64,000 bases of DNA from a bacterium (GTDB lineage: Bacteria; Vulcanimicrobiota; Vulcanimicrobiia; Vulcanimicrobiales; Vulcanimicrobiaceae). The stretch spans positions 1 through 64,000 of the forward strand of contig JAJZED010000003.1 of NCBI GenBank assembly GCA_021805775.1. The letters are read 5' to 3'. Under the pieces are notes generated by a model that did not search any database, had not been told where the DNA came from, and saw only the letters and a list, made by a program, of their open reading frames with translations. The position numbers were made by a program, and so were the translations under genes. Of the stretch, positions 26,140 through 29,477 are shown one piece after another. Within the stretch, counting starts at the first letter, position 1. Every line of letters starts with the position of its first letter.

Positions 26140-26864
26140 TTCGCAAATTTCTCGCCCCAGTCGCCCTGCTCGCGCTCGTCGCAGCGGCACCGCAGCCGCC
26201 TCTTGAGCTCTCGTTACGTTTCGCGCGCACGAGTTTCGATCTTCTCGATCCGGTCGGCATTCAACTCATCGTCGATAACCCGGGCGATCGTCGACGCGTC
26301 GTCGCCTTTGCGACGCCGAATGAATACGCACTTGCGATCTATCGCGGTAGGAGCGAAATTTGGCATTCCGCCGCCGTTTCAACCGAAAGCTCCCCACCGC
26401 TCGGGAAAACCCACGTGCGCAATATCCCTCCGGGAGCATCGGTCTTCGTTACCTACGTTTGGAACGCGCTCGACGCTCGCAACACGAGCCCCGCACAAGG
26501 GCGCTACCGCGTTGTCGCAACGTTCGCCGGCGTCGGCACCCACTTGCGGGCGACGCGCATGCTGCGATTCATCGCGCCCCTACAACCAAACTCCGTCGCA
26601 CGCCTTCCCGTCGGTAGCGTGGCAACGATAGCCGGGAGGCTCGACCCCGACCGCGATTCCATTAGCTCCGCCGGATATTCCTTGCGCCTTTCGCGAATCG
26701 TGCGCGGTGTGGTGGCCGGGCGTTGCATCGTCGTTCGCGGACAGGTTACCGCGCTGCGCGGCGTGCGCGGTTTCGCCGTTAGCCGTTCGGCCCTACTACA
26801 AAACGATGGTAGAGTTCACGACTGCGATTCCGTAGTTGCTCGATATCACCATCGTTTTCGATAA
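26136..26864 (+). CDS. Exported BsuPI-like domain protein
   Basis: 242 residues from GTG 26136, which overlaps the amidohydrolase stop as GTGA. A signal peptide ends at LVAAAPQ. The next ~110 residues (LELSLRFARTSFDLLDPVG, VTYVWNALDARNTSPAQ, GRYRVVATF) fit the immunoglobulin-like BsuPI proteinase-inhibitor fold. The rest is unassigned. The 3' end overlaps coaE on the other strand by 86 bases, an unusually long tail-to-tail overlap. Confidence 0.65.
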   Translation: MIRKFLAPVALLALVAAAPQPPLELSLRFARTSFDLLDPVGIQLIVDNPGDRRRVVAFATPNEYALAIYRGRSEIWHSAAVSTESSPPLGKTHVRNIPPGASVFVTYVWNALDARNTSPAQGRYRVVATFAGVGTHLRATRMLRFIAPLQPNSVARLPVGSVATIAGRLDPDRDSISSAGYSLRLSRIVRGVVAGRCIVVRGQVTALRGVRGFAVSRSALLQNDGRVHDCDSVVARYHHRFR

Positions 26865-27369
26865 TTTCGTCGGCGAGCGCGCGCGCGCGTTCGGGCTCGA
26901 TCTGCGCGCGCATACGTGCGCGCACTGCATCCCGTTGGGCTCCGTCGCGAGTCATTACGCGTTCGATCCTTCGCTCCGGCGGTGCGACGACCAGCACCGT
27001 GCGGTCGACGAGCTTTGCGTAGTCGGTTTCGAAGAGCAACGGTACGACGTGTACGATCAGTTGCCCCGGCGCGGCTTCGCGCTCCCGTGCGAAGGCGATC
27101 CGTCGAATCTCCGGGTGCAGAATTCCGTTGAGTTTGAGGCGCTCGGCGTCGTCGTCGAATACCGCTTCGGCGAGCGCGGAGCGATCGAGTTTACCATCGA
27201 CGACGCTGCCGGGCCAGTGTCGGCCGATCGAAGCTAACGCGCTGCTTCCCGGCGCGACCGCCTCGCGCGCTACATCGTCGGTATCGATAACGAATGCGCC
27301 GCATCTTTCCAACTCGGCAGCCACCTCGCTCTTTCCGCTGCCGATTCCGCCGGTCAATCCTAATCGCAT
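26779..27369 (-). CDS. coaE: Dephospho-CoA kinase
   Basis: 196 residues. It phosphorylates dephospho-CoA in the last step of coenzyme A synthesis. The P-loop GLTGGIGSGKSEVA is at the N-terminus, DTDDVAREAV is the substrate site, and LHPEIRR and VPLLFE follow in family order. The gene lies downstream of S1 on the same strand, with a strong hairpin between them. Confidence 0.94.
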   Translation of the reverse strand: MRLGLTGGIGSGKSEVAAELERCGAFVIDTDDVAREAVAPGSSALASIGRHWPGSVVDGKLDRSALAEAVFDDDAERLKLNGILHPEIRRIAFAREREAAPGQLIVHVVPLLFETDYAKLVDRTVLVVAPPERRIERVMTRDGAQRDAVRARMRAQIEPERARALADEIIENDGDIEQLRNRSRELYHRFVVGPNG

Positions 27370-27443: not shown

Positions 27444-28628
27444 CTACGGTGTTTCGCCCTCGGCGATCTCGGCTTCGGGCATCGCCGCCTCGGCGACCGG
27501 GAGAGCGACGTCGACATCTTCGTCGATAGCGATCGCTTCGATCTCTTCCAACGGAACGTCGGCGACGTGCTGGATCGAGGCCGTGATACGACGCGTTGCG
27601 TGGTTGACCGTGAGCAGCGTGACGCTGACATCCTGGCCCTGCGCGTAGTTGGCAGCGCCGTCGAACTCGCCTTTGGGCACCATCGCCAGAATTCCGGGAA
27701 CGATCTCCACGAGGAGATAATTCGGCGTAACTTTGACGATCTGTGCGGTGAGTTGGTTGGTCTCGTAGATCTTGTCCGCGTGCTGATCCCAGGGATCGGG
27801 CAGCGCGTGCTTGAGCGAGAGACTCACCTTCTTGGCATCTTGATCGAACTTCATGATCTCGACGCTGACGACATCGCCGATCTTCACGACTTCCGAAGGG
27901 TGCTTGATGCGAGCGTATGAGAGCTCGCTGTTGTGGATCAACCCGTCGATGCCGCCGAGATCGACGAACGCGCCGAAATCGGCGAGCCGCACGACGACGC
28001 CTTCGCGGATCTGCCCGACTTCGAGCATGCCGAGCAACTCTTGCTTCTTGGCCTGCATCTCTTCTTCAAGAACGAGGCGCTGCGAGAGAACGACGCGATG
28101 GCGCTTGTGGTCGAGGTCGATGACCTTCAGCCGCAATTGCTGACCGATCGTTTCTTCCAAATTGCCGACCGGCTGACGACGAATCTGCGATGCCGGAACG
28201 AATCCGCGCATGCCGAGGTCGACGAGAACGCCGCCCTTCACGACCTGCGTGACCGTCGCTTCGATCACTTCGTCGCGTTCGTGCGATTCGATAACTTTCT
28301 CCCACGTCTTGAGCGCGCGCGCGCGACGTTCGGAAAGGAAGAGGGTACCGTCGAGCTCGTCGATGCGATGGATCATCACTTCGAGCGAGTCCCCGACCTT
28401 GAGGCTCTTGGGATCGATCGCGAGCGACAATTCGCGGAAGGGCAATACGCCCTCCGATTTGCCGCCGACATCGACGAGAAACTCGTCTTTGTCTTTCTGC
28501 ACGATCATGCCGTTGAGAACTTGGCCTTCGTCGAGAACGCGCAGCGATTCTTCGTAGAGACGCTGCTCGAGCGCGAGCTGATCTTCTTCTTCGCCCTGCG
28601 GATGGGCGAGTTCGGTGGTAGAGATGAT
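27444..28628 (-). CDS. rpsA: Ribosomal protein S1-like, four S1 domains
   Basis: Up to 394 residues. Four S1 RNA-binding units start near GQVLNGMIVQ, ERDEVIEATVT, VGQIREGVVVRL and LTAQIVKVT; an acidic tail follows. It helps recruit mRNA to the 30S subunit. The first ATG (28508) would remove the first strand of S1 domain 1 and has no ribosome-binding site. Reading upstream gives STTELAHPQGEEEDQLALEQ and more, with no ATG, GTG or TTG. ATC codons at 28628 and 28625 follow AGGA by five and eight bases. I therefore place the start at AUC; ATG 28508 is the conventional alternative. Confidence 0.9.
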   Translation of the reverse strand: MISTTELAHPQGEEEDQLALEQRLYEESLRVLDEGQVLNGMIVQKDKDEFLVDVGGKSEGVLPFRELSLAIDPKSLKVGDSLEVMIHRIDELDGTLFLSERRARALKTWEKVIESHERDEVIEATVTQVVKGGVLVDLGMRGFVPASQIRRQPVGNLEETIGQQLRLKVIDLDHKRHRVVLSQRLVLEEEMQAKKQELLGMLEVGQIREGVVVRLADFGAFVDLGGIDGLIHNSELSYARIKHPSEVVKIGDVVSVEIMKFDQDAKKVSLSLKHALPDPWDQHADKIYETNQLTAQIVKVTPNYLLVEIVPGILAMVPKGEFDGAANYAQGQDVSVTLLTVNHATRRITASIQHVADVPLEEIEAIAIDEDVDVALPVAEAAMPEAEIAEGETP

Positions 28629-28664
28629 TGTTGTCCTGCCTTTAATTTTTTATTTTCGCGAAGA

Positions 28665-29477
28665 CTACCGTTGACATTGCCCGCACCACCAGGTGCCTCG
28701 ACCTGCGATAACCGTTCTCCGGATCGGCGTCCCGCAGCGCAGGCAGCCTTCCCCGAGTCGTCCGTAGACCGCAAGGGCGTTTTGAAAGCCGCCTTTGAGA
28801 CCCTCGGCGTCGACATAATCGTCGACGGTCGTTCCGCGCATCTCGATCGCTCGTTCGAGCACATCGATAATGGAGCGGCGCAAGCGCTCGCGCGCAGGCC
28901 CCCGCAGCGACCCTGCGGGGCGACTCGGCCGAATTCCGGCGAGCCAAAGCGACTCGCATGCATAGATATTCCCTATGCCTGCGACTCGCCGCTGATCGAG
29001 AAGCAAAGCCTTGATCGGCGTTCTTCGCTTCGCCAGGATAGCGCCAAAGCGCTCGCCTGTAAAGGCGCCATCGAGCGGCTCGGGGCCAATATCGGCATCC
29101 CATGCCTCGTTCGGCTCGATCAAGCGCATCCGGCCGAAGGTACGGGTGTCGGCGAAGGCGAGGCGCCGCCCGTCGGCAAGCGCGAGAACGACGTAAGTCG
29201 CAGGAAAATCGCGCTCGCTTGGGGCCTGGACGACCAGTCGCCCGGTCATACGCAGCGAGGTAAGCAGGCGCCGACCCGAGCCCAGCTCGATGACGACGTA
29301 CTTCGCGCGCCGCTCGACAGCCTCGATCCGCTCGCCTTGCAACGCCGCAGCGAAATCTATCCCTGCCGGGGCCTGCACCATCTTCTGTTTGCGGACTTCG
29401 ACGGCGCGGATCTGCGCTCCGACGACGGCGCCGCGCAGGCCGCGCGCGATCGTCTCGACTTCAGGGAGCTCGGGCAT
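28665..29477 (-). CDS. mutM: Formamidopyrimidine-DNA glycosylase
   Basis: 270 residues. It removes 8-oxoguanine and formamidopyrimidines and cuts the abasic site. PELPEVETIARGL gives the catalytic Pro2 and Glu3; KYVVIELGSG has the conserved Lys; RVAGIGNIYACESLW is the helix-two-turn-helix; the C-terminal zinc finger reads CLRCGTPI ... CGQC. Full length. It lies between DUF192 and S1 on the same strand. Confidence 0.96.
   Translation of the reverse strand: MPELPEVETIARGLRGAVVGAQIRAVEVRKQKMVQAPAGIDFAAALQGERIEAVERRAKYVVIELGSGRRLLTSLRMTGRLVVQAPSERDFPATYVVLALADGRRLAFADTRTFGRMRLIEPNEAWDADIGPEPLDGAFTGERFGAILAKRRTPIKALLLDQRRVAGIGNIYACESLWLAGIRPSRPAGSLRGPARERLRRSIIDVLERAIEMRGTTVDDYVDAEGLKGGFQNALAVYGRLGEGCLRCGTPIRRTVIAGRGTWWCGQCQR

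Follow-up and report, generated by a model that had tools for sequence, protein, structure and literature searches.

Comparison of rpsA sequences across a bacterial order indicates that translation of this gene, which encodes ribosomal protein bS1, almost certainly starts at an AUH codon (AUC, AUU or AUA), the one matching positions 28625-28623 of the window (the 64 000-nucleotide stretch of contig JAJZED010000003.1 that was analysed). The overall explanation that we find probable from the sequences is that the AUH codon would direct initiation with fMet under repression by IF3; a regulatory role of this start through its sensitivity to IF3 is, by analogy, mildly favoured. With such a start, a gene caller that accepts only ATG, GTG and TTG would give this essential protein too short or too long an N-terminus throughout the order.

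The rpsA frame in the window

The features of the region are collected in Table 1, where the names of the two neighbouring genes are our own assignments from sequence motifs. The preliminary description of this DNA had proposed that S1 starts at AUC, that the first ATG is at 28508, and that the frame stays open upstream of it with no ATG, GTG or TTG. These coordinates proved right: from the TAA at 28652-28650, which closes the frame, down to 28508, the sequence and an ORF scan gave none of the three codons. The AGGA said to precede two consecutive ATC codons by five and eight bases is indeed present at 28637-28634, 5 nt from the ATC at 28628-28626 and 8 nt from the ATC at 28625-28623. Once Met is removed, the protein would begin with STTELAHPQ if the second ATC is used and with ISTTELAHPQ if the first is. 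Truncation of S1 by a conventional gene caller was also correctly foreseen, the first canonical start codon of the frame being the ATG at 28508.

Table 1. Coordinates of rpsA, its start region and its neighbours in the window
Feature	Positions	Strand	Basis or remark
rpsA coding sequence (bS1, 393 aa + stop)	27444..28625	minus	translation, S1 matches
Proposed start codon AUC (second ATC)	28623..28625	minus	aligned with the ATG column of the sister family
First ATC	28626..28628	minus	probably spacer or minor alternative start
Shine-Dalgarno (SD) AGGA, 8 nt before the second ATC	28634..28637	minus
A/U-rich leader cgcgaaaataaaaaattaaa	28641..28660	minus	putative S1/ribosome loading stretch
In-frame TAA, 8 codons upstream of the second ATC	28650..28652	minus	sequence and ORF scan
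First in-frame ATG (354 aa, choice of a conventional gene caller)	28506..28508	minus	ORF list
mutM/fpg (presumed), 270 aa, ending 39 nt upstream of the second ATC	28665..29477	minus	ORF list
coaE (presumed; dephospho-CoA kinase), downstream neighbour	26779..27369	minus	ORF list

The rpsA product matched the bS1 chains of ribosome structures, E. coli and mycobacterial ones included, with E-values of 1e-83 to 1e-89 (about 1e-84 for E. coli bS1). The Pfam S1 model matched three stretches (166.9 bits), i.e. repeated S1 domains are present. Scores against the NCBIfam S1 equivalogs, models made from other lineages and lengths, were below the curated cut-offs (e.g. 303.8 versus 368 for NF005208). The peptide stretch ahead of ATG 28508 includes DQLALEQRLYEESLRVLDEGQVL. 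This stretch had been described as S1-like and as the price of a start at that ATG, and both views stand: the part that would be missing (LYEESLRVLDEGQVL / LYEESLRVLDEGQVLNG) can be aligned with E. coli S1, beginning at residue 7 of the E. coli protein. In E. coli the N-terminal domain of S1 is needed for binding to S2 and to the ribosome (PMC3296737), and the rpsA product, judged by its sequence, carries an N-terminal segment of this S2-anchoring kind. ATG 28508 is thus not taken as the start, because a protein beginning there would lose its ribosome-anchoring stretch.

Two observations concern S1-like genes other than this one. A second S1-domain protein (L002, G000:C7:245559-246323) is without the ribosome-anchoring first domain and carries tandem PAPHLS/PAPQLS-like repeats at its N-terminus; comparable paralogs occur in many relatives. 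In one family member (G016, 99% complete) the S1 paralog was found and the main rpsA was not, which reflects either an assembly gap or a loss.

The start codon in relatives

The genome of the window and 59 relatives were searched for rpsA. Three families are distinguished here: f1, with 26 genera possessing rpsA; f2, with four genomes of the same order; and the sister family f3, with 14 genomes of the same class. The order, Vulcanimicrobiales, was formerly called Eremiobacterota or WPS-2. Its cultured member, Vulcanimicrobium alpinum, belongs to the Vulcanimicrobiaceae (synonym Baltobacteraceae) (PMC10582173), and f1 is probably this family.

The codon matching 28625-28623 was tallied in 48 distinct f1 sequences: 34 have ATC, 13 ATT and one ATA; ATG, GTG and TTG are never found. 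None of the 48 has G as the third base of this codon 1, as against 14 of 48 at codon 3 and 13 of 48 at codon 4. At codon 2 every one of them encodes Ser or Thr, residues that fit the removal of a start Met. A regex scan found 37 of the 48 sequences to be free of ATG, GTG and TTG from the upstream in-frame stop to the ATH codon, and 27 to have that stop at most 10 codons away; the scan passed over a few loci and misread L007 and L009 (ATG inside mutM) and L015 (an earlier ATC). These three were read by eye, as were L020, which another scan had missed, and a few loci left unassigned; the codon tally (34/13/1) does not derive from the regex scan that gave the two counts. At the extreme, a single codon separates TAG from ATC (L101). 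In a genome assembled as a single contig (G017), the ATC follows GAAGGAAGTTACCTCAC and stands 9 codons from the upstream stop, without any canonical start in the interval.

The preliminary description had suggested aligning the N-termini of orthologs and looking for ATG at this very codon; it occurs there in the sister family only. In f3, ATG occupies the same alignment column in 14 genomes out of 14, and the N-terminal tails are similar (MSDT, MADT or MTDT in f3, as against ISTT or ITTT). All four f2 genomes have ATC at the matching codon, the reading being ATC ACC ATT TTG or ATC GCC ATT TTG. The TTG that comes three codons after this ATC could be the start, which leaves f2 ambiguous, so the strict claim of an AUH start rests on f1. 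On an S1 tree built without the start codon, ATG and ATH are separated by one change; the branch on which it falls divides f3 from f1 + f2 and has full support. All codon states together need six changes, i.e. there were about five switches among ATC, ATT and ATA.

Other placements of the start can be weighed against these data. A sequencing or assembly error at 28623-28628, named in the preliminary description as a refutation, might be invoked since the assembly of the window is apparently MAG-derived (28 contigs). It is, for practical purposes, refuted by independent assemblies that carry ATH: the same codon is present in nine further genomes of the genus, and ATH is found in the 25 other f1 genera, the single-contig genome included. 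It is also very improbable that a canonical start is used and that the AUC is internal or untranslated, be it through ATG 28508 or through upstream entry by frameshifting or coupling to mutM. That ATG does exist, and mutM ends 39 nt before the second ATC, but in the relatives the next downstream ATG, GTG or TTG is found at unrelated positions, 3 to 100 codons past the ATH codon; the conserved N-terminal helix would go missing; and many relatives have an in-frame stop 1-10 codons ahead of the ATH codon. Nor do relatives begin at the residue matching ATG 28508, the other outcome that would have told against the AUC: it is non-Met in most of them, often Thr, Val or Leu.

We consider it unlikely that translation in this genus starts at the first ATC (28628) or at both ATCs. 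A spacing of 5 nt from the AGGA is acceptable and both codons are kept in the genus, but outside it the first is kept in one other genus only (L022), the position being occupied elsewhere by AAC, ACC, AAA, CAG, CGC, CAC and others. The second ATC is kept everywhere, and in most ATC genomes its spacing of 8 nt from an AGGA/AAGGTAGGA-like element is conserved; the start is for these reasons placed at 28625-28623. The AUC start first proposed is therefore backed by conservation, and the choice that had been left between two ATC codons is settled for the second.

Initiation signals and the rarity of AUH starts

A search for the 16S rRNA 3' end GGCTGGATCACCTCCTT, with the anti-SD CCTCCTT, gave matches in G007 (same genus), G014 and G017 and none in the window's own assembly. 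Most ATC genomes have A-rich leaders resembling that of the window. Folding of the window leader gave z-scores of -1.8 and -0.2, so that a strongly structured rpsA start region is not evident in the window, and Rfam gave no match to a known RNA leader near the gathering score at rpsA. A subgroup of ATT sequences (L028, L031-L034 and L036) has a G/C-rich leader upstream of rpsA in place of the A-rich one, with a conserved G/C-rich potential hairpin, such as GATGCGACCGGA...TCCGGCGCATC, directly before AAAGGGG.

In the genome of the window the anticodon arm of the initiator tRNA, CGGGCTCATAACCCG, has the normal CAU form, and exact matches to the initiator-arm pattern were obtained in 48 of the 60 genomes (this one and 47 others). 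Decoding of AUC by an initiator tRNA carrying a GAU anticodon was rejected, no GAT form being found in the 60 genomes and CAU being present. One initiator-like arm with TAT for CAT, CGGGCTTATAACCCG, accompanies a normal arm in another genome (G018:C4:36403-36417).

IF3 is encoded, infC scoring over the cut-off. The infC gene of the window's genome (L089) reads GGAGTATCGCC ATA GCA CGA, and the interval from the in-frame stop to the ATA is free of canonical starts. Where infC starts were read, they were ATA (once ATC) in f1, ATC in f2 and ATT in f3. That rpsA and infC share the same kind of poor start suggests that they are throttled jointly.

General use of AUH starts in this genome was considered and rejected: the ribosomal protein and factor genes of the S10/spc/alpha region start with ATG, GTG or TTG, and a crude codon-usage screen, which covered about 524 kb of the genome and 416 gene models, yielded only rpsA and infC as models combining their own SD, a well-placed AUH and no nearby canonical start. 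For 24 models the screen gave no canonical start close to where coding begins; several of these (rplD, rpsC) have a real one just downstream. Its other SD-associated matches were CTG or ACG codons, or lay inside false upstream extensions. Coupled starts such as that of pth escape the SD criterion.

The pth gene, for peptidyl-tRNA hydrolase, lies at about 14846-15440 of L197, on the minus strand (near 84900-85450 of G000:C26), and was read in the relatives as L201-L230. In the genus of the window it has no ATG, GTG or TTG between the in-frame stop and the conserved GLGNPG motif, and an ATA overlaps the stop codon of rplY (ATAA). Elsewhere, ATA with an ATAG overlap is found in some other genera and in f2, the remaining starts being ATC, TTG, GTG, CTG or ATG. 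From its sequence, the pth start looks variable across relatives and coupled to rplY, whereas the rpsA codon is held within AUH behind an SD of its own. With at least this one further gene seemingly using a near-cognate start, infC and rpsA are not strictly alone in having one. A further frame, of a HAD-type hydrolase (L192:12143-12982), has no canonical start before YVAFDLDGTL; its candidate start, presumably coupled, is a CTG that overlaps a TGA.

Control of S1 synthesis and comparison with known systems

In the mechanism that we propose, the ordinary CAU initiator tRNA would read the AUC at 28625-28623 as fMet, and the AGGA 8 nt upstream would, together with the A/U-rich leader, guide initiation to it. 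IF3 destabilises the initiation complexes formed on AUH codons; because of this, S1 synthesis would be held low and would rise when 30S subunits are in excess over IF3, the same signal as for infC. As S1 is as a rule an abundant protein and E. coli initiates poorly at AUC, such a start would call for strong transcription or relaxed discrimination. Repression of non-canonical starts by IF3 is established, as illustrated by the infC feedback and by Streptomyces sigR (PMC5472188). A broader proposal, which we put forward tentatively, is that Vulcanimicrobiales have a small initiation-fidelity regulon in which rpsA joined infC under a shared AUH start and the production of both IF3 and S1 would be proportional to IF3-free 30S subunits, with pth as a possible third, coupled member. 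Both proteins act on the free 30S subunit.

The AUH start may be real and yet act as a constitutive throttle or be fixed for historical reasons, S1 levels being set by transcription and IF3 dosage having no regulatory effect. We hold this to be possible but doubtful. In favour of this reading, rpsA has a fairly good SD and, in the window, a leader without striking structure; against it, an AUH infC co-occurs in the same genomes, and the codon has a single origin followed by about five AUH-to-AUH changes and not one reversion to AUG. Such an origin, with AUH retained and no reversion, suggests selection for weakness. No better placed, though compatible with control by IF3, is autogenous control, in which free S1 would compete with the 30S subunit on the A/U-rich leader and the AUC would keep the 30S from winning. 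An A/U-rich leader at rpsA could supply the S1 sites, and a competition of this kind between free S1 and 30S, which needs a weak SD, operates in gamma-proteobacteria (PMC10931766); the G/C-rich, hairpin-like leader of the ATT subgroup speaks against it.

A close parallel to an IF3-repressed rpsA is infC, with its AUU, AUC or AUA start and its autoregulation by IF3: both are translation genes, have a conserved AUH codon behind their own SD and are found in the same genomes. They differ in that the product of infC is itself the repressor and AUH starts of infC occur in distant bacteria, whereas rpsA encodes bS1 and, in this analysis, showed an AUH start in this order only. Retention of a near-cognate start over the long term is known for few genes, and the IF3-controlled cases cited here are infC and sigR. 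The sigR gene of Streptomyces (PMC5472188) resembles rpsA in its lineage-wide non-canonical start, its good SD and its having been missed by gene callers; it differs in using GTC instead of AUH and in encoding a sigma factor. Control of another gene by IF3 was demonstrated experimentally there, which makes sigR a precedent and also sets it apart from rpsA. An AUC start of rpsA was not found reported in the literature consulted (the open-access subset), and it may have been noticed elsewhere. The cultured V. alpinum (PMC9758169) makes the AUH start of rpsA testable. If the proposal is true, weakness of a start codon can be recruited to control the mRNA-binding protein of the ribosome.

In E. 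coli, rpsA starts with AUG. The gamma-proteobacterial rpsA (PMC10931766) has in common with the gene described here an A/U-rich leader and an initiation region that looks deliberately weak, but the weakness is differently placed: a weak SD and a folded leader there, a good SD and a weak start codon in Vulcanimicrobiales. The weak or absent SD of the gamma-proteobacterial operator has no counterpart here, AGGA/AAGGTAGGA being present. A weak start in a gene for an abundant ribosomal protein has also been proposed to aid regulation in the case of rpsT (bS20), which starts with UUG in enteric bacteria (PMC10931766). UUG is, however, an accepted alternative start, outside the codons that IF3 rejects in the manner of infC, and in this the AUH of rpsA differs. 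The AUH codon would thus, if the proposal is true, provide a second route to the control of rpsA, beside the weak SD of the gamma-proteobacteria.
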